A stretch of 33,396 bases of DNA from Candidatus Dormiibacterota bacterium (GTDB lineage: Bacteria; Chloroflexota; Dormibacteria; Aeolococcales; Bog-877). The translations under genes were made by a program, and so were the position numbers. This document shows, one piece after another, positions 8,806 through 19,826 of the stretch (within the stretch, counting starts at the first letter, position 1; the number at the start of each line of letters is the position of its first letter). The notes below the pieces were generated by a model. The model was not told the origin of the DNA, made no database searches, and was given only the letters and a program-made list of their open reading frames with translations. The DNA is taken from contig DAHUZL010000151.1 in NCBI GenBank assembly GCA_027306655.1, forward strand, positions 1 to 33,396, given 5' to 3'.

Positions 8806-9189
8806 ATGGCGGACCTGCTCGACCGCGAACAGGTCCTGGTGACCGGGCCGGTCGTCGCCGAGCTGTTGGCGGGGACGCGCGATCGACGCCGGGGCGAGCT
8901 CTGGTCTGTGCTCCAGGGACTGGGGTGGGCGGCCGTGGATCGCCACACGTGGTGGCTTGCCGGGACCGCGGCCGCTGCCCTGCGCGAGCAGGGCGCGACC
9001 GTCCCGCTCACCGACCTGGTGATCGCCGCCGCCGCCGTCCAGGCCGGCGCCGAGCTGTGGACGCGCGATCGTGACTTCGTGCGCGTCGGGGAGGCGATGC
9101 CGGCCCTCACCCTGTATTCGTCGGCCGACCCCCTGGCCCTGGGGTCGCCGGGGAGCACCCGCGGGAGCCGCGCCCGGGTGCCCGGGTGA
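8806..9189 (+). CDS. PIN-domain protein, VapC-like, apparently N-terminally truncated
   Basis: [30 protein letters not shown]...[27 protein letters not shown] matches the VapC core; the usual N-terminal (V/L)DTSVWI segment is absent. Confidence 0.7.
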
Positions 9190-9196
9190 TCGACCC

Positions 9197-9225
9197 TTGA
9201 CATCGCAACCATCCCCGGGTATAAG
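9197..9225 (+). promoter_or_regulatory. Promoter of the ilv/leu cluster: TTGACA-17-TATAAG
   Basis: TTGACA 9197-9202, 17-nt spacer, TATAAG 9220-9225, directly upstream of the leader peptide. Confidence 0.85.
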
Positions 9226-9235
9226 TGGAGGCACT

Positions 9236-9319
9236 GTGGCCGCCACGTACGCCGTTCAGCTGATCGCGCGGGACCTCCGGGTCCTGGTACTCCTTATTCG
9301 CGGGGGGCCGCTCAGCTAA
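9236..9319 (+). CDS. ilv leader (attenuator) peptide MAATYAVQLIARDLRVLVLLIRGGPLS
   Basis: GTG start 11 nt past the -10; codons 14-21 are L-R-V-L-V-L-L-I; followed by overlapping antiterminator/terminator elements and ilvB. Confidence 0.88.
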   Translation: MAATYAVQLIARDLRVLVLLIRGGPLS

Positions 9320-9354
9320 CGCCACCTGACGACGGCGAAGGCAACCGGCCCCCC
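9302..9354 (+). promoter_or_regulatory. Antiterminator pairing GGGGGGCCG (9302-9310) with CGGCCCCCC (9346-9354)
   Basis: Perfect 9-bp complementarity, mutually exclusive with the terminator stem at 9343-9375. Confidence 0.75.
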
Positions 9355-9382
9355 GACAGCCCCGGGGGGCCGGTTCTTTTTT
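9343..9382 (+). terminator. Intrinsic terminator of the ilv attenuator
   Basis: AACCGGCCCCCC (9343-9354), 9-nt loop GACAGCCCC, GGGGGGCCGGTT (9364-9375), then CTTTTTT; perfect 12-bp stem with T-tract. Confidence 0.92.
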
Positions 9383-9479: not shown

Positions 9480-9671
9480 GTGACCAGCCCCGCACCCGCA
9501 GCCCGGCCCGACCCCGGACCCGACCCGGTCCCCGACGATGTCCATCTGGGCGAGAGCGCTCGCAACCGGCTGGGGCGCCTGCGCGCCGCCGAGCCGGAGC
9601 GGCCGATCCGCGAGCTCGCCGCCGACGCGGCCGTGACGGCGGCGATCGACGCCACCTACCAGGCCGGGTGA
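9480..9671 (+). CDS. 63-aa hypothetical protein between attenuator and ilvB
   Basis: GTG start with GAGGAG ~8 nt upstream; ends 10 nt before the ilvB ATG. No family recognised. Confidence 0.55.
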   Translation: MTSPAPAARPDPGPDPVPDDVHLGESARNRLGRLRAAEPERPIRELAADAAVTAAIDATYQAG

Positions 9672-9681
9672 GGTCCGTCTG

Positions 9682-11414
<1,733 letters not shown>

Positions 11415-11418
<4 letters not shown>

Positions 11419-12017
11419 GCGAGCCCGCGCACGCCCACCTCGCGCCCCGGCCCATCCCCGAACCCACCGGACACCGCGTCCGCGTGGTCACGATGCGGCT
11501 GGAGGACCGGGCCGGGGTGATGCAGCGCGTCACCAACTGCATCCAGCGGCGGGGCTTCCGCCTGGAGACCTGCGCGGTCGGACCGACCCCCGAGCCCGGG
11601 ATTGCCGGCCTCACCCTCCGGATCGACCCCGGGTACCAGCCGCCGGACCAGGTGGTGAAGCAGCTGGCCAAGCTGATTGACGTGGTCAGCGTCGAGGACA
11701 TCACCGACTCCCCCCGGGTCGAGTGGACGACCGCGATCGTCACCCTCCTCCGGCGCGGGGCGGAGGCGGTGGTGGACCCGGCGGTGGCCGGCCTCGACGG
11801 CCAGGTGCTCCACCGCGACCGCGACCGGGTGGTGGTGGCGGTGGCGGGGCCACCCGCCGAGGTCGCGACCCAGCTGGAGTCGCTCCGGTCGCTGCCGGGG
11901 GCGGACTGGATGTGCAGCGGGCCGCTCGCGTTCGCGCCCGGGTCGCCGCCGCGGTCGGCGACAATGGACCTCCCACCGCCCGCGGCGGTACCCCCGGCCG
12001 CACCACGAGGGCGCTGA
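11415..12017 (+). CDS. ilvN: Acetolactate synthase small subunit (ACT domain)
   Basis: [49 protein letters not shown]...[22 protein letters not shown] overlap with the ilvB stop. Confidence 0.9.
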
Positions 12018-12022
12018 CCAGG

Positions 12023-13098
<1,076 letters not shown>

Positions 13099-13102
<4 letters not shown>

Positions 13103-14370
13103 GGGCGGCAGCCAGCGGCGCCGACCCCGACGTAGGGGCGAGCACCTCCAGCGTCGCCGGCATCGCTGACTCCCCCGACGACACCGTCGAGTTCTTCGAC
13201 ACCACGCTCCGCGACGGCGAGCAGTCGCCGGGAGCGACCCTGCACCTCGCCGACAAGCTGCTGCTCGCGCACCAGCTCGCGCGCCTCGGCGTCGACGTCA
13301 TCGAGGCCGGCTTCCCGGCGTCGTCGCCGGGCGACTTCGAGGCGGTGCGGCGGATCGCGCGCGAGGTCGAGGGGCCGATGATCACCGGCCTGGCGCGGGC
13401 CACCCGGAGCGACATCGATGCGGTCCACGGCGCGGTGCGAGAGGCGGCGCGGCCGCTCATCCATGTCTTCATCAGCGTGTCCGACCTCCACATCACCCAC
13501 AAGCTGGGGCTGGACCGGCCCACCGTCACCGCCCGCACCGCCGAGGCGATCGCCTATGCGAAGACGCTCTGCGACGCGGTCGAGTTCTCGCCCGAGGACG
13601 CGGGCCGGGCCGACCCCGACTACCTCTGCGAGGTGGTTCAGGCGGCGGTCGACGCCGGTGCGACGGTGGTCAACATCCCCGACACCACCGGCTACTGCCT
13701 GCCCCTGGAGTTCAGCGCCCTGGTCGCCGCGGTCCGCCGCGAGGTTCGGGGGATGGACCGGGTCCTCACCAGCGTGCACTGCCATGACGACCTCGGCCTG
13801 GCCACCGCCAACTCGCTGGCCGGGATCGCCGCGGGTGCGCGCCGGGTCGAGGGCTGCATCAACGGGCTCGGCGAGCGCGCCGGCAACGCCGCGATCGAGG
13901 AGGTGGTGATGGCGCTCCGCGTCCGCCGGCCGGTGCTCCACCTCAGCGACCACCTCCGCACCGAGGAGCTGGTCCCCACCAGCCGGATGGTCGAGCGGCT
14001 CACCGGCATCCCGGTCCCGCCCAACAAGCCGGTGGTGGGCGCCAACGCGTTCGCCCATGCGTCGGGCGTCCACCAGCATGGGGTGCTGCGCGACCGGCGC
14101 ACCTACGAGATCATGTCGGCGGCCGACGTGGGCGCCGACGGCACCCGGATCGTGCTCACCGCCCGCTCCGGCCGCCACGCCCTCCGCCACCGCCTGGACC
14201 AACTCGGGGTCCGGCTCCCCGCCGACTCCTTCCAGGCGTGCTGGGAGCGCTTCCTCCAGGTGGCCGACACCGCCAAGGCGGTGGACGACGCCGACCTCGC
14301 CGCGATCGCCCAGGCGGTGCTGGCCGAGACGGCGGCGGTCGAGCCGGCCCCGGTGGCGCCCTCCCTGTGA
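13099..14370 (+). CDS. leuA: 2-isopropylmalate synthase, short form lacking the C-terminal LeuA-dimer domain
   Basis: [69 protein letters not shown]; ends shortly after subdomain II. GTGA overlap with ilvC. Confidence 0.88.
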
Positions 14371-15461
14371 GCGGCGGCGCGACGGCGACCGCCCCCCTGC
14401 GGATCGCGGCCCTGCCCGGCGACGGCGTCGGTCCCGAGGTCACCGATGCCGGCCTGGCGGTGCTGGAGGCGATCTGCGATCGGGCCGGGCTGACCTGCGC
14501 GGTGAGCCGCCATCCGATCGGCGGCGCCGCCCTCGACGCCACCGGCGAGCCCCTCCCCGCCGCCACCCTCGAGGCCGCGCGGGGAGCGGACGCGGTCCTG
14601 CTCGGGGCGGTGGGCGGCCCCGGCTGGGACCACGCCCCGGTGCGCCCGGAGGCCGGCCTGCTCGCGCTCCGCCGCGGCCTCGGCGCCTTCGCCAACCTGC
14701 GCCCGGTGGTGGTGTGGCCGGGGCTGGAGGCGACCAGCCCGCTCCGCCCGGAGCGGGTCCAGGGGGCCGACATCCTGTTCGTCCGCGAGCTCACCGGCGG
14801 CGCCTACTTCGGGCGGCCCAAGGGGATCGCCGGGACGACGCCCCATCGGCGCGCGGTCGACTCGATTGAGTACGCCGAGGGGGAGATCCGGCGGGTCGCC
14901 GAGGTGGCCTTCGCGGCGGCGGAGCGCCGCCGCCGCCATCTCACCTCGGTGGACAAGGCCAACGTCCTCGCCAGCTCGCGGCTCTGGCGCTCGGTGGTGG
15001 AGGAGCTCGCCCAGGAGCACAGGGCGGTGACGGTGGACCACTGCCTCGTCGACAGCTTTGCCCTCCGGCTGCTGCAGGAGCCGCGCGCCTTCGACGTGGT
15101 CGTGACCGAGAACCTCTTCGGCGACATCCTCACCGACGAGGCGGCCGCGCTCACCGGCACCCTCGGCACCCTGCCCTCGGCGAGCGGCGGCGGCGACGGC
15201 CCCTGGCTGTACGAGCCGGTGCACGGCTCGGCGCCCGACCTGGTCGGCCGTGGCGTCGCCAATCCCTTGGGCGCGATCGCCACCATCGCGATGCTGCTGC
15301 GCCACACCCTCGGTCGCGAGGACCTCGCCCGGCGGGTGGAGGCCGCGATCGCCGGGATCGTGCAGCGGGGGCCCCTCACGCCCGACCTCGGCGGCGACGG
15401 CACGACCGCCACGGTCACCGCCCAGGTGGTGGCGCAGGTGGGCCGGGAGGTGGCAGCGTGA
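14367..15461 (+). CDS. leuB: 3-isopropylmalate dehydrogenase
   Basis: [79 protein letters not shown] overlap with leuA. Confidence 0.95.
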
Positions 15462-17068
15462 CGTCGAGGCCGGTCATCCTCTACGACACCACCCTGCGCG
15501 ACGGGATGCAGGGCTTCGGGCTCCAGCTCAGCTGCGACCAGAAGCTGGCGATCGCCCGCCGGCTGGACCGGCTCGGCGTCGCCTACGTCGAGGGCGGCTG
15601 GCCGGGGGCCAACCCGCGCGACACGGCGCTGTTCCGGCGGCTGCGCCTCCGGCCGCTGGGCTCGGCGCGGCTGGCCGCCTTCGGCGCCACCTGCCGTCCC
15701 GGAGCCAGGGCCCCGGACGATCCCGGTCTCGCCGCCACCCTCGACGCCGGCGCCCCGGTGGTGACGCTGGTGGGGAAGGCGTCGCGCTGGCAGGCGGAGA
15801 CCGTCCTCGGCACCACTGCGGGCGAGAACCTGCGCATGGTGGCCGCCAGCTGCGCCCACGCGGTGGCCCAGGGACGCGAGGTGGTCTTCGACGCGGAGCA
15901 CGTCTTCGACGGCGCCCGCGGCGAGGACAGCGACCCCGGCTACGCGATGGAAGTGCTGGAGGCGGCCGCCCAGGCGGGGGCGTCGTGGATCGTCCTCTGC
16001 GACACCAACGGCGGGCAGCTCCCCCGGGCCATCGCGGAGGTGACCGCGGCCGCCCGCGAGCGGGTCGGGGATCGCCTCGGGATCCACTGCCACAACGACG
16101 CCGGGGTGGCGGTGGCGGCCTCGCTGGCGGCCCTCGAGGCGGGGGCGCGGATGGTCCAGGGCACCCTCAACGGCTGCGGCGAGCGCTGCGGCAACGCCGA
16201 CCTGCTGGTGATCGCCGCCACCTGCGAGCTCAAGCTGGGCCGGGCGGCGCTGCCCCCGGACCGGCTCCAGGAGCTGGTCGCGGTCTCGCGCACCTTCGAC
16301 GCCGTCGTCAACCGCGCCCCCGACGCGCACCGCCCCTACGTCGGCCCGGCCGCCTTCCTGCACAAGGGAGGGCTCCATGCCCAGGGCATGGCCCGCCACC
16401 CCCGCGCCTACCAGCACGTCGACCCGGCGCGGGTGGGCAACCGGAGCCGGACCGTGGTCTCCGACCAGGGCGGGCGGAGCAGCATCGGGGCCAAGCTGCG
16501 CGAGCTGGGCTTGGCCGACCTCGATCGCGACGGTCGCGGCCGGCTGGTGGAGCGCCTGAAGCGCCTGGAGTCCCTGGGGTGGGCGTTCGAGGACGCCGAC
16601 GCGTCGTTCGAGCTCTTGGTCCGCCGCCAGCAGCCCAAAGACCAGCCCCCATTCGCACTCCGGGAGGTGCTGGTGGTGGCCCGCCAGGAGACCCCGGCCG
16701 ACGGCCCCGCCCGGCAGTCGGTGGAGACCAGCGTCAAGCTCCTGGTCGGCCCCGCCCTGGTTCACACCGCGGCCACCGGGCTGGGCCCGGTCGAGGCCCT
16801 CGACGTCGCCCTCCGCCGGGCCCTGGTCCCCCACTTCCCCGAGCTGGCCCAGGTCCGGCTGGTCGACTACCGTGTCCGCGTGATCGACGGCGATCGCGGC
16901 ACCGGCGCGACGGTGCGGGTGGGGATCGACTCCAGCGACGGCGAGCGGCTGTGGACGACGGTGGGCTGCTCCGGCAACATCCTCCACGCCTCCGCGCTGG
17001 CGCTGGTCGACGGCTACGAGTGGGCGGTGCGCCACCGCGGCCACGGCCGGCTCACGGCCAGCGCATGA
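15458..17068 (+). CDS. cimA: (R)-citramalate synthase (CimA type, with LeuA-dimer domain)
   Basis: [71 protein letters not shown], long C-terminal domain [35 protein letters not shown]. Confidence 0.88.
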
Positions 17069-18510
17069 CCGCGCGCACCGCCTACGCGAAGATCTGGGAC
17101 GCCCACGTGGTCGCCGGCGACCCCCGGGCCCGCGCCCTCCTCTACGTCGACCTCCACCTCGTCCACGAGGTCACCTCGCCGCAGGCGTTCCAGGGCCTCC
17201 GCGCCGCCGGCCGGACGGTCCGCCGGCCCGACCTCACCCTGGCGACGATGGACCACAACGTCCCCACCTGGGAGCGCTCGCGGCCGACGCCGGACCCGGT
17301 CGCCCAGGAGCAGCTCCGCCAGCTGGAGGAGAACTGCCGGGAGGCTGGGATCCCCCTCCTCGGCCTGCACCACGCCCGCCAGGGGATCGTCCACGTGATC
17401 GGGCCCGAGCTGGGGGTCACCCAGCCGGGGATGACCGTGGTCTGCGGCGACTCCCACACCGCGACCCACGGTGCCTTCGGGGCCCTGGCCTTCGGGATCG
17501 GCACCTCCGAGGTGGAGCAGGTCCTCGCCACCCAGTGCCTCTGGCAGGCGCCGGCCGCGACCCTGGAGGTGCGCATCGAGGGCGCGCTCCCGGCCGGCGT
17601 CACCGCCAAGGACATTGCCCTCGGCGTGATCGGCCGGATCGGCGTCGGCGGCGGCCGGGGCTCGGTCATCGAGTACACCGGCCCGGTGGTCCGCGCGCTC
17701 TCGATGGAGGGGCGGATGACCCTCTGCAACATGACCATCGAGGCCGGGGCCCGGGCCGGGCTGGTCTCCCCCGACGAGACCACGGTCCGCTACCTGGAGG
17801 GCCGCCCCGCGGTCCCCGGTGGCGCCGACCTCGCCCGCGCCGCCGCCGCCTGGCTGGCCGTCGCCAGCGACCCCGGGGCGACCTTCGACCGCACCGAGAC
17901 GATCGACGGGACGGCGCTCGTGCCCTACGTCACCTGGGGAACCACCCCCGCCATGGTGGTGCCGGTGACCGGCCACGTCCCCACCCTGGACGCGTTCCCG
18001 ACCGAGGCCGGGCGGCGGACGGCGGAGCGCGCCCTCGCCTACATGGACCTCGCCGAGGGCACCCCGATCGAGGCGATCACCGTGGACCGGGTCTTCATCG
18101 GCTCCTGCACCAACAGCCGCCTCGAGGACCTCCGCGCGGCGGCGGAGGTCGTCCTCGGGCGGCGCGCCCATCCCCGGGTGCGGGCGATGGTGGTGCCGGG
18201 GTCGCAGACCGTCAAGCGCGAGGCGGAGGCGCTCGGGCTGGACCGCATCTTCCGCGACGCCGGCTTCGAGTGGCGGGAGGCCGGCTGCTCGATGTGCCTG
18301 GGGATGAACCCCGACGTGCTCTTGCCCGGCGAGCGCTGCGCCTCCACCTCCAACCGCAACTTCGAGGGCCGCCAGGGGGCGGGCGGCCGCACCCACCTGG
18401 TCAGTCCCGCGATGGCGGCGGCCGCCGCCCTGCACGGGCATTTTGTCGACGTCCGGGAGCTGGCGACGACCCGGCTGCCGGAGCCGCCCGCCGCCCGGGC
18501 GGGCGGCTGA
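17065..18510 (+). CDS. leuC: 3-isopropylmalate dehydratase large subunit
   Basis: [11 protein letters not shown]...[85 protein letters not shown] overlap with cimA. Confidence 0.96.
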
Positions 18511-18520
18511 GGCCCCGCGG

Positions 18521-19141
18521 ATGCGCCCCTTCACCGAGCACGAGGGCCTGGTCGCGGTGCTCCCCCGCGACGACGTCGACACCGACCAGATCATCCCCAA
18601 GCAGTTCCTCTCGCGGACCGATCGCGACGGCTACGGCGACGCCTGCTTCTTCGCCTGGCGCCTCGATGAGGCGGGCCGTCCGCGACCGGACTTCGAGCTC
18701 AACCACCCCGGCTTCCGGGGCGCCAGCGTGCTGGTGGCCGGGCGCAACTTCGGCTGCGGCTCGTCGCGCGAGCACGCCGCCTGGGCGCTCCTCGACAGCG
18801 GCCTGCGGGTGGTGGTGGCCCCCTCGTTCGGCGACATCTTCACCGTCAACGCGCTCCAGAACGGGCTCCTCCCGGTGGCGCTGCCGGCGGAGGCGGTGCG
18901 CACCCTGGTCGGCCGCGGCGAGCGCCACGACGGCTATCGCCTCACCGTCGACCTGGGCCGCCAGGAGGTGCGCGACGGTGAGGGGCTGCGGGTGGGCTTC
19001 ACGGTCGACCCCTTCTGGCGCGACTGCCTGCTCGAGGGACGCGACCCGGTGGCGATGGCGCTCCACCACGCCGCCGCGATCAGCGCCCACGAGGCCCTGC
19101 GTTCGCCCCTGCTGCCGGTCAGCACCGGGCTCGACACCTGA
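18521..19141 (+). CDS. leuD: 3-isopropylmalate dehydratase small subunit
   Basis: DDVDTDQIIPKQFLSRTDRDGYGDACFFAWR, LVAGRNFGCGSSREHAAWALLD, FTVDPFWRDCLLEG. Confidence 0.95.
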   Translation: MRPFTEHEGLVAVLPRDDVDTDQIIPKQFLSRTDRDGYGDACFFAWRLDEAGRPRPDFELNHPGFRGASVLVAGRNFGCGSSREHAAWALLDSGLRVVVAPSFGDIFTVNALQNGLLPVALPAEAVRTLVGRGERHDGYRLTVDLGRQEVRDGEGLRVGFTVDPFWRDCLLEGRDPVAMALHHAAAISAHEALRSPLLPVSTGLDT

Positions 19142-19161
19142 TCGGCCGCCCCGGCCGACGC

Positions 19162-19167
19162 TAGACT
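19162..19167 (+). promoter_or_regulatory. Putative -10 (TAGACT) for a near-leaderless transcript of the 19176 gene
   Basis: TAGACT followed by 8 nt then ATG, in the 34-nt leuD-19176 gap. Confidence 0.5.
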
Positions 19168-19175
19168 GGCCGGCC

Positions 19176-19826
19176 ATGACGTGGGCGATCGCCTGCCGCT
19201 GCCGGGACGCCCCCGGGACCCTGGGCCGGCTGGCCGCCACCATCGCCGCCGCGGACGCCAACATCCGCGACGTGGCCCTCACCCGGGAGGGCCCGGACCT
19301 GGTCTTCCTCCATTTCGAGATCGACGACGGCCCGGAGCCGGACGCGATCGTGTCCCGTCTGGGCGCGCTCGAGGAGGTCGACCTGGTCGAGCGGGTGCCG
19401 ACCCAGCGGACCATCTTCGGCAAGCGCGTGATCGTGATCGGCGGGGGCGCCCAGGTGGCGATCGTGGCCCAGGGCGCGGTCAACGAGGCCGACCGGCACA
19501 ACATCCGCGGGGAGAGGATCAGCGTCGACACCATCCCGCTCGTCGGCGAGCAGGAGATCGCGGCGGCGGTGCGGGCGGTGCGGCGGCTGCCGCGGGCGGT
19601 GATCCTGGTGCTGGCGGGCTCGCTGATGGGGGGCGCCATCACCGAGGCGGTCCGGGAGGTGCGCCGCCACGGGATCCTGGTCATCTCCCTGCACCAGGCG
19701 GGGTCGGTGGTGGAGGCGGTCGACCTGGTGGTGGCGGACCCGATCCAGGCCGGGGTGATGGCGGTGATGGCGGTGGCGGGGACGGCCCGCTTCGATCTGG
19801 CGCGGGTGCGCGGCCGCCGGTTCTGA
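19176..19826 (+). CDS. ACT-domain protein with DUF5612-like C-terminal domain
   Basis: ACT-like N-terminus (RDAPGTLGRLAATIAAADANIRDVALTREGPDLVFLHFEID) plus GKRVIVIGGGAQVAIVAQGAVNEADRHNIRGERISVDTIPLVGEQEI...LAGSLMGGAITEAV...QAGVMAVMAVAGTARFD; family name from memory. Confidence 0.75.
   Translation: MTWAIACRCRDAPGTLGRLAATIAAADANIRDVALTREGPDLVFLHFEIDDGPEPDAIVSRLGALEEVDLVERVPTQRTIFGKRVIVIGGGAQVAIVAQGAVNEADRHNIRGERISVDTIPLVGEQEIAAAVRAVRRLPRAVILVLAGSLMGGAITEAVREVRRHGILVISLHQAGSVVEAVDLVVADPIQAGVMAVMAVAGTARFDLARVRGRRF

Follow-up and report, generated by a model that had tools for sequence, protein, structure and literature searches.

The question raised by this locus is whether the DNA in front of ilvB allows the operon to respond to the amino acids that it makes, and by what means. 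The window, that is, the whole 33,396-nucleotide stretch analyzed here, has a GC content of 74.9% and belongs to a 2.8-Mb metagenome-assembled genome (G000) that, judging by its nearest named relatives, is a Candidatus Dormibacterota; the closest named matches of its IlvB are bins of that group, at no more than 76% identity. A first-pass annotation of the DNA had proposed an ilv attenuator with a near-leaderless leader peptide. We located a promoter, a leader ORF, a putative antiterminator and a terminator 362 nt 5' of ilvB (Table 1), which very probably constitute a ribosome-mediated transcription attenuator setting ilvB-ilvN-ilvC-leuA-leuB-cimA by the supply of charged valine, leucine and probably isoleucine tRNAs. 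The mechanism is familiar and the lineage is new, and the attenuator is well supported and conserved in Dormibacteria. Less expected is that six relatives have a diverged copy of it before the glutamate synthase large-subunit gene (gltB).

The operon headed by ilvB makes the sensed amino acids, with ilvB, ilvN, ilvC, leuA and leuB named by NCBIfam models and the last gene, named from its Pfam domains, probably encoding citramalate synthase (cimA). The true ilvN start is probably near 11415, inside the longer ORF. The leuA-type ORF gave no match to a C-terminal regulatory domain, and the Pfam search returned no LeuA_dimer for it. Should the cimA assignment be correct, the operon could supply all three branched-chain amino acids (valine, leucine and isoleucine) with no need for threonine; no threonine codons occur in the leader's control run.

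Table 1. Coordinates of the attenuator and of the downstream genes in the window.
Feature	Position	Strand	Remark
-35 element, TTGACA	9197..9202	+	Read directly; TTGAC kept at the same position in f1 and f2
-10 element, TATAAG	9220..9225	+	-10-like element 8-12 nt 5' of the leader start in 59/59 relatives
Predicted transcription start (A), 8 nt past the -10 element, 3-nt leader	9233..9233	+	Predicted; A invariant in 14 f1 leaders
27-codon ORF of the leader peptide, from GTG to TAA	9236..9319	+	27 codons in all 14 f1 leaders
Possible long-range helix, 9258-9265 with 9310-9317	9258..9317	+	7/8 pairs in the window; 2 pairs changed on both sides
Hairpin spanning codons 12-17, with stem 9270-9275:9280-9285 and loop TCCG	9270..9285	+	Covariation
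Control codons 16-21, GTC CTG GTA CTC CTT ATT	9281..9298	+	GTA and ATT invariant in f1
5' arm of the putative antiterminator, CGGGGGGCCG, within the leader ORF	9301..9310	+	Folds with 9346-9355
Terminator hairpin, 13 pairs, loop of 7	9343..9375	+	3 pairs changed on both sides
Putative antiterminator 3' arm, common to the terminator 5' arm	9346..9355	+	Core pairs invariant in relatives
U tract, CTTTTTT	9376..9382	+	Read directly
63-aa ORF between terminator and ilvB, own Shine-Dalgarno, unannotated	9480..9671	+	Kept in family f1
ilvB, acetolactate synthase large subunit	9682..11418	+	TIGR00118, 641 bits against a cut-off of 538
ORF with ilvN, acetolactate synthase small subunit	11241..12017	+	TIGR00119 above cut-off, residues 81-232
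ORF with ilvC, ketol-acid reductoisomerase	11723..13102	+	NF004017 above cut-off, match from residue 101
leuA-type 2-isopropylmalate synthase	13099..14370	+	NF002086 above cut-off
ORF with leuB, 3-isopropylmalate dehydrogenase	14238..15461	+	TIGR00169 above cut-off, match from residue 55
Second HMGL-like enzyme with LeuA_dimer domain	15458..17068	+	Pfam domains only

Among 110 genomes of the class, IlvB was identified in 70, and in 59 of these, which are related and incomplete genomes, a branched-chain leader ORF followed by a terminator precedes ilvB (14 in family f1, 14 in f2 and 31 in f4). The terminator of G027 is broken by an assembly gap, and a few other terminators were read by eye after the automatic search had missed them. 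Six other ilvB loci (G026, G043, G081, G085, G104 and G105) reach contig ends. A covariance model built from the f1 leaders recovered the element in every f1 genome with an assembled region 5' of ilvB. The leader has 27 codons in f1 and 21-31 across the class. The recurrence of the leader ORF and hairpins in relatives, which the annotation had named as a test of its reading, was thus found.

The promoter was present as annotated, with a 17-nt spacer, and its TTGACA occurs only once in the window when both strands are searched. It is near-consensus and conserved; a sigma-70 scan that demanded T as the last -10 base did not pick it up. The distance from the -10 element to the leader start in the 59 genomes was 10 nt in 28, 11 nt in 16, 9 nt in 12, 12 nt in two and 8 nt in one, compared to 12 of 2373 control start codons (0.5%) in the same upstream sequences with a -10-like element at 8-12 nt, a contrast that is somewhat inflated because the pattern was written to cover the f1 variants and the start nearest the -10 element was taken where several were possible. 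The f1 starts picked in this way also yielded 27 codons in 14/14 genomes. The fixed spacing argues against a transcription start well upstream, which the annotation had listed as a refutation, and supports the near-leaderless start of the annotation; its position, given there as about 9232, is likely A9233.

The leader ORF runs from the GTG at 9236 to the TAA at 9317-9319 and encodes (M)AATYAVQLIARDLRVLVLLIRGGPLS. Codons 14-21 read L-R-V-L-V-L-L-I, with branched-chain residues at seven of eight positions, in agreement with the annotation. We searched both strands of the window for ORFs of 10-45 codons with at least 7/8 Leu/Ile/Val followed by a strong hairpin and a T-run, and this ORF was the only one recovered. 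The intrinsic terminator sits between the leader ORF and the structural genes, and a terminator of such strength would be expected 0.1 times in shuffled DNA of a 1-kb region. It had been described as a perfect 12-bp hairpin with a CTTTTTT tract; the hairpin and tract are there, and the stem has 13 pairs. The proposed competitor, GGGGGGCCG at 9302-9310, is complementary to CGGCCCCCC at 9346-9354 as claimed, and the pairing gains one more pair (9301:9355).

Alignment of the f1 leaders supported some of these structures more than others. Three pairs of the hairpin over codons 12-17 changed on both sides, with 93% of cells paired in 14 genomes, and the covariation scores of this hairpin and of the terminator were above all or nearly all shuffles and above the slid controls, counts that relatedness among the genomes can inflate. 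There was moderate support for a long-range helix that would pair codons 8-10 with the end of the ORF, with a register displaced by 3 in the G041 group. The antiterminator showed an invariant G-C core, one pair changed on both sides and one column A:C-mispaired in 11/14; its covariation is weak because the core is invariant, so the f1 alignment is compatible with the pairing and does not prove it. A synonymous-codon shuffle of the antiterminator was supportive in f4 (mean z -1.6) and gave no clear support in f1 (-0.39) or in f2 as tested. In f2, the antiterminator arm directly follows the ATT codon, far ahead of the stop codon, and shares sequence with a hairpin that spans the control codons (GCTCCT-GATT-AGGAGC), a layout that would correspond to the textbook 1:2 / 2:3 / 3:4 arrangement. 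We do not propose a class-wide protector fold, for which the same kind of shuffle gave mean z of -0.35 in f1, -1.12 in f2 and +1.3 in f4 and no consistent excess stability.

The annotation had remarked that GTA, CTT and ATT are unexpected in so GC-rich a genome, and the codon counts of the operon bear this out. In ilvB, ilvN, ilvC, leuA and leuB of the window, GTA makes up 0.6% of valine codons and ATT 4.6% of isoleucine codons, and neither CTT nor CTA occurs among 187 leucine codons. Across f1, codon 18 is GTA and codon 21 is ATT in 14/14 leaders, and codon 20 is CTA or CTT in 13/14. The f1 leaders use GTA for 16 of 41 valines, ATT for 14 of 26 isoleucines and CTA for 22 of 74 leucines, compared to 1.3% GTA, 2.5% ATT, 0.3% CTA and 3.6% CTT in the f1 ilvB genes. 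The bias is similar in f4 (GTA 34/58, ATT 32/42 and CTT 68/201). The invariance of the rare GTA and ATT implies selection on decoding. Rare codons may plausibly sharpen stalling, as the annotation supposed; according to attenuator sensitivity theory, the charging of tRNA isoacceptors matters and rarity alone is no explanation (PMC1183508), and the strongly conserved GTA, CTA and ATT codons offer material to test this theory of codon choice. ARAGORN recovered valine tRNAs TAC, GAC and CAC and leucine tRNAs CAA, CAG, TAA and GAG from G000, with no leucine TAG gene and also no isoleucine tRNA, so the set is incomplete. The window leader contains no CTA codon, and a meaningful pairing of this absence with the missing TAG tRNA is only a hint.

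From this anatomy we infer the following start, stalling, termination and amino-acid response. Transcription would start at or near A9233, and the ribosome would begin on the GTG about 3 nt from the 5' end of the RNA, without a transcribed Shine-Dalgarno sequence. When charged branched-chain tRNAs are available, the ribosome would reach the stop codon and cover 9302-9310, allowing the 13-bp terminator to form and transcription to end near 9382. If the supply of these tRNAs falls short, the ribosome would stall among the rare codons in the neighborhood of GTA (codon 18), leaving 9301-9310 free to pair with 9346-9355, which would block the terminator and let RNA polymerase continue.

We evaluated this scheme by folding only the RNA 3' of the ribosome, and the energies below are energy-parameter predictions with an assumed footprint, in which the leading edge of the ribosome lies roughly 13 nt beyond its A site. 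With the ribosome on codon 18, RNA 9301-9362 is predicted to fold as the antiterminator at -34.4 kcal/mol, compared to -16.0 kcal/mol with the ribosome on codon 20 and -12.0 kcal/mol on codon 21. With the ribosome on the stop codon, the predicted value for the free region is -6.5 kcal/mol and that for the terminator -33.5 kcal/mol. In most of the 59 genomes, the fold freed by a stalled ribosome is predicted to be about as stable as the terminator or more so. The model would have stalls up to about codon 18-19 leave 9302-9310 free and stalls at L20 or I21 cover it; codons 14-21 therefore need not all act alike. A stall at isoleucine codon 21 should mask the nearby antiterminator arm, which counts against the proposed mechanism. 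Equilibrium folding with a masked ribosome and pairing allowed across it always yielded the terminator, a result that we regard as uninformative.

The same attenuator could have an ordinary Shine-Dalgarno-led leader, with a start further upstream and use of the GGAGG at 9227-9231, which lies 4 nt 5' of the GTG and speaks for this reading. We consider this unlikely, since the GGAGG overlaps the spacer between the -10 element and the start, behind a promoter whose conservation was described above. A Shine-Dalgarno core precedes the leader start in 2/59 genomes (G000 and G049), yet in f1 and f2 nearly all of the small ORFs that follow the terminator carry one. Because of this scarcity we regard the GGAGG of the window as incidental and rejected it as the ribosome site of the leader; its absence from the sister genome G001, with a core at only one other leader, strengthens the near-leaderless reading. 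The leader starts with TTG, a weak start codon, in 12 of the 14 f1 genomes.

Two further readings would dispense with the response to charged tRNA. One could treat the conserved region as a ligand-binding, riboswitch-like RNA in which the ORF is incidental, which would suit the covarying hairpin, the conserved nucleotides within the ORF and the fact that some covarying changes there alter amino acids. We regard this as extremely unlikely, because the frame, a start spaced by about 10 nt from the -10 element and the branched-chain run are kept in 59 genomes while much else changes, and because no Rfam 15 match in the window or the leader reached the gathering score and no credible one emerged when E values up to 10 were allowed (the T-box sequence is likewise absent from the window in that search). 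A terminator that acts constitutively, behind a vestigial leader and with no amino-acid response, is very unlikely; equilibrium folding of complete leaders does return the terminator in every f1 member, but such folding does not model translation-coupled folding, and the selection on decoding seen at GTA and ATT is against a vestigial leader. The ribosome-mediated attenuator with a near-leaderless ORF is the reading that we retain.

Attenuators of ilvB with leaderless leader ORFs are already well known from Actinobacteria (PMC11857589, PMC10272879, PMC8079986). In Corynebacterium glutamicum ilvBNC, the transcription start precedes the leader start codon by 1 nt and there is no ribosome binding site, and AUG, GUG and UUG starts have been described for the ilvB-II motif, with uORFs of 15-17 codons usual in Corynebacterium (PMC11857589, PMC10272879). 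The Dormibacteria element shares with it the branched-chain-rich leader before ilvB, the terminator and, putatively, the antiterminator, and differs in its longer leader ORF, sequence and phylum, in the predicted 3-nt leader and the mostly TTG starts in f1, and in an operon that runs on into leuA-leuB-cimA. The ilvL of Streptomyces lividans is similar in layout, with a leaderless leader peptide before ilvBHC and a terminator downstream, but has 13 residues and a short ILVL run; the comparison is of layout, not sequence (PMC8079986). Experimental support exists for the ilvB1 uORF of Mycobacterium tuberculosis, in which a ribosome that has reached the stop codon hides the antiterminator, a stall at the LVVI codons exposes it and GUA is marked as a regulatory codon; the logic is the same, in another lineage and sequence and with a terminated RNA of about 120 nt (PMC13236596). 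A limited search of the open-licence literature found no earlier report for Dormibacterota, which is weak evidence. The present case would extend leaderless leader-peptide ilv attenuation from Actinobacteria to an uncultured soil phylum.

In five genomes (G006, G009, G010 and G011 in f2 and G051 in f3; loci L100, L148, L149, L150 and L151), a T-box leader takes the place of the attenuator 5' of ilvB. These calls are based on the GGTGGTACCRCG core and on matches to Rfam RF00230 with E values of 2.5e-9 to 1.3e-4, under the gathering score. The apparent specifier is CUC (Leu), as GAA-CUC in 4/5 and GA-CUC in 1/5. T-box leaders are likewise sensors of tRNA charging and stand before ilvB in bacteria of this class, but they bind the tRNA directly and have no leader peptide; the exchange of attenuator and leucine T-box at one operon within one class offers a natural comparison of tRNA-charging sensors. 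A rough scan of ilvB leaders in other phyla turned up several T-boxes along with a few branched-chain ORFs, most of which lack the -10 spacing. Other Chloroflexi (L053 and L072) have a longer branched-chain leader ORF 5' of ilvB (MNALSNLVVLSLVLVIVLIIRNKDHMLLGEG), without the Dormibacteria -10 spacing.

The f1 covariance model also recovered diverged copies of the leader in six f1 genomes (E 2.8e-9 to 0.005; L197 in G038, L198 in G034, L199 in G036, L200 in G046, L201 in G035 and L202 in G047). The copy lies directly 5' of gltB in G035, G036, G038, G046 and G047; in G034 it is near one contig end and gltB is at the end of another, and the two presumably adjoin. The copies keep the near-leaderless promoter, an ORF of 25-28 codons and an antiterminator and terminator that are predicted to fold. 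The branched-chain run is lost, and each copy retains one CTA codon, in most cases in the position that control codon 17 occupies in the ilvB leader, and at codon 20 in G038. No copy was found in 19 regions 5' of gltB from genomes of other families, nor by eye 5' of gltB in G049. It is possible, and we propose it tentatively, that in f1 the attenuator has become a movable module, with an ilvB leader copy placed before gltB to adjust glutamate supply through a weak leucine or rare-codon signal. If so, the module would tune glutamate, the amino donor for branched-chain synthesis, and the copies suggest how such a switch could be reused for another gene.

Several minor observations concern the surroundings of the attenuator. 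The ORF at 9480-9671 had no match in Pfam or NCBIfam, and a Shine-Dalgarno-led ORF of 61-66 residues is conserved at its place across f1. Most f2 members have a small ORF of different sequence in the same place, and f4 has little room there. In many f4 relatives (L012-L025), a leuC-like gene, recognized by eye, lies divergently upstream of the leader, and a conserved sequence between the two (GGGAACGACAACTTTACGC in several) could be an operator. In the window, an ORF for a PIN-domain, VapC-like toxin (8806-9189) ends just 5' of the -35 element, and the ORF at 17535-19826, downstream of the operon, carries a DUF5612 domain beside an ACT domain.
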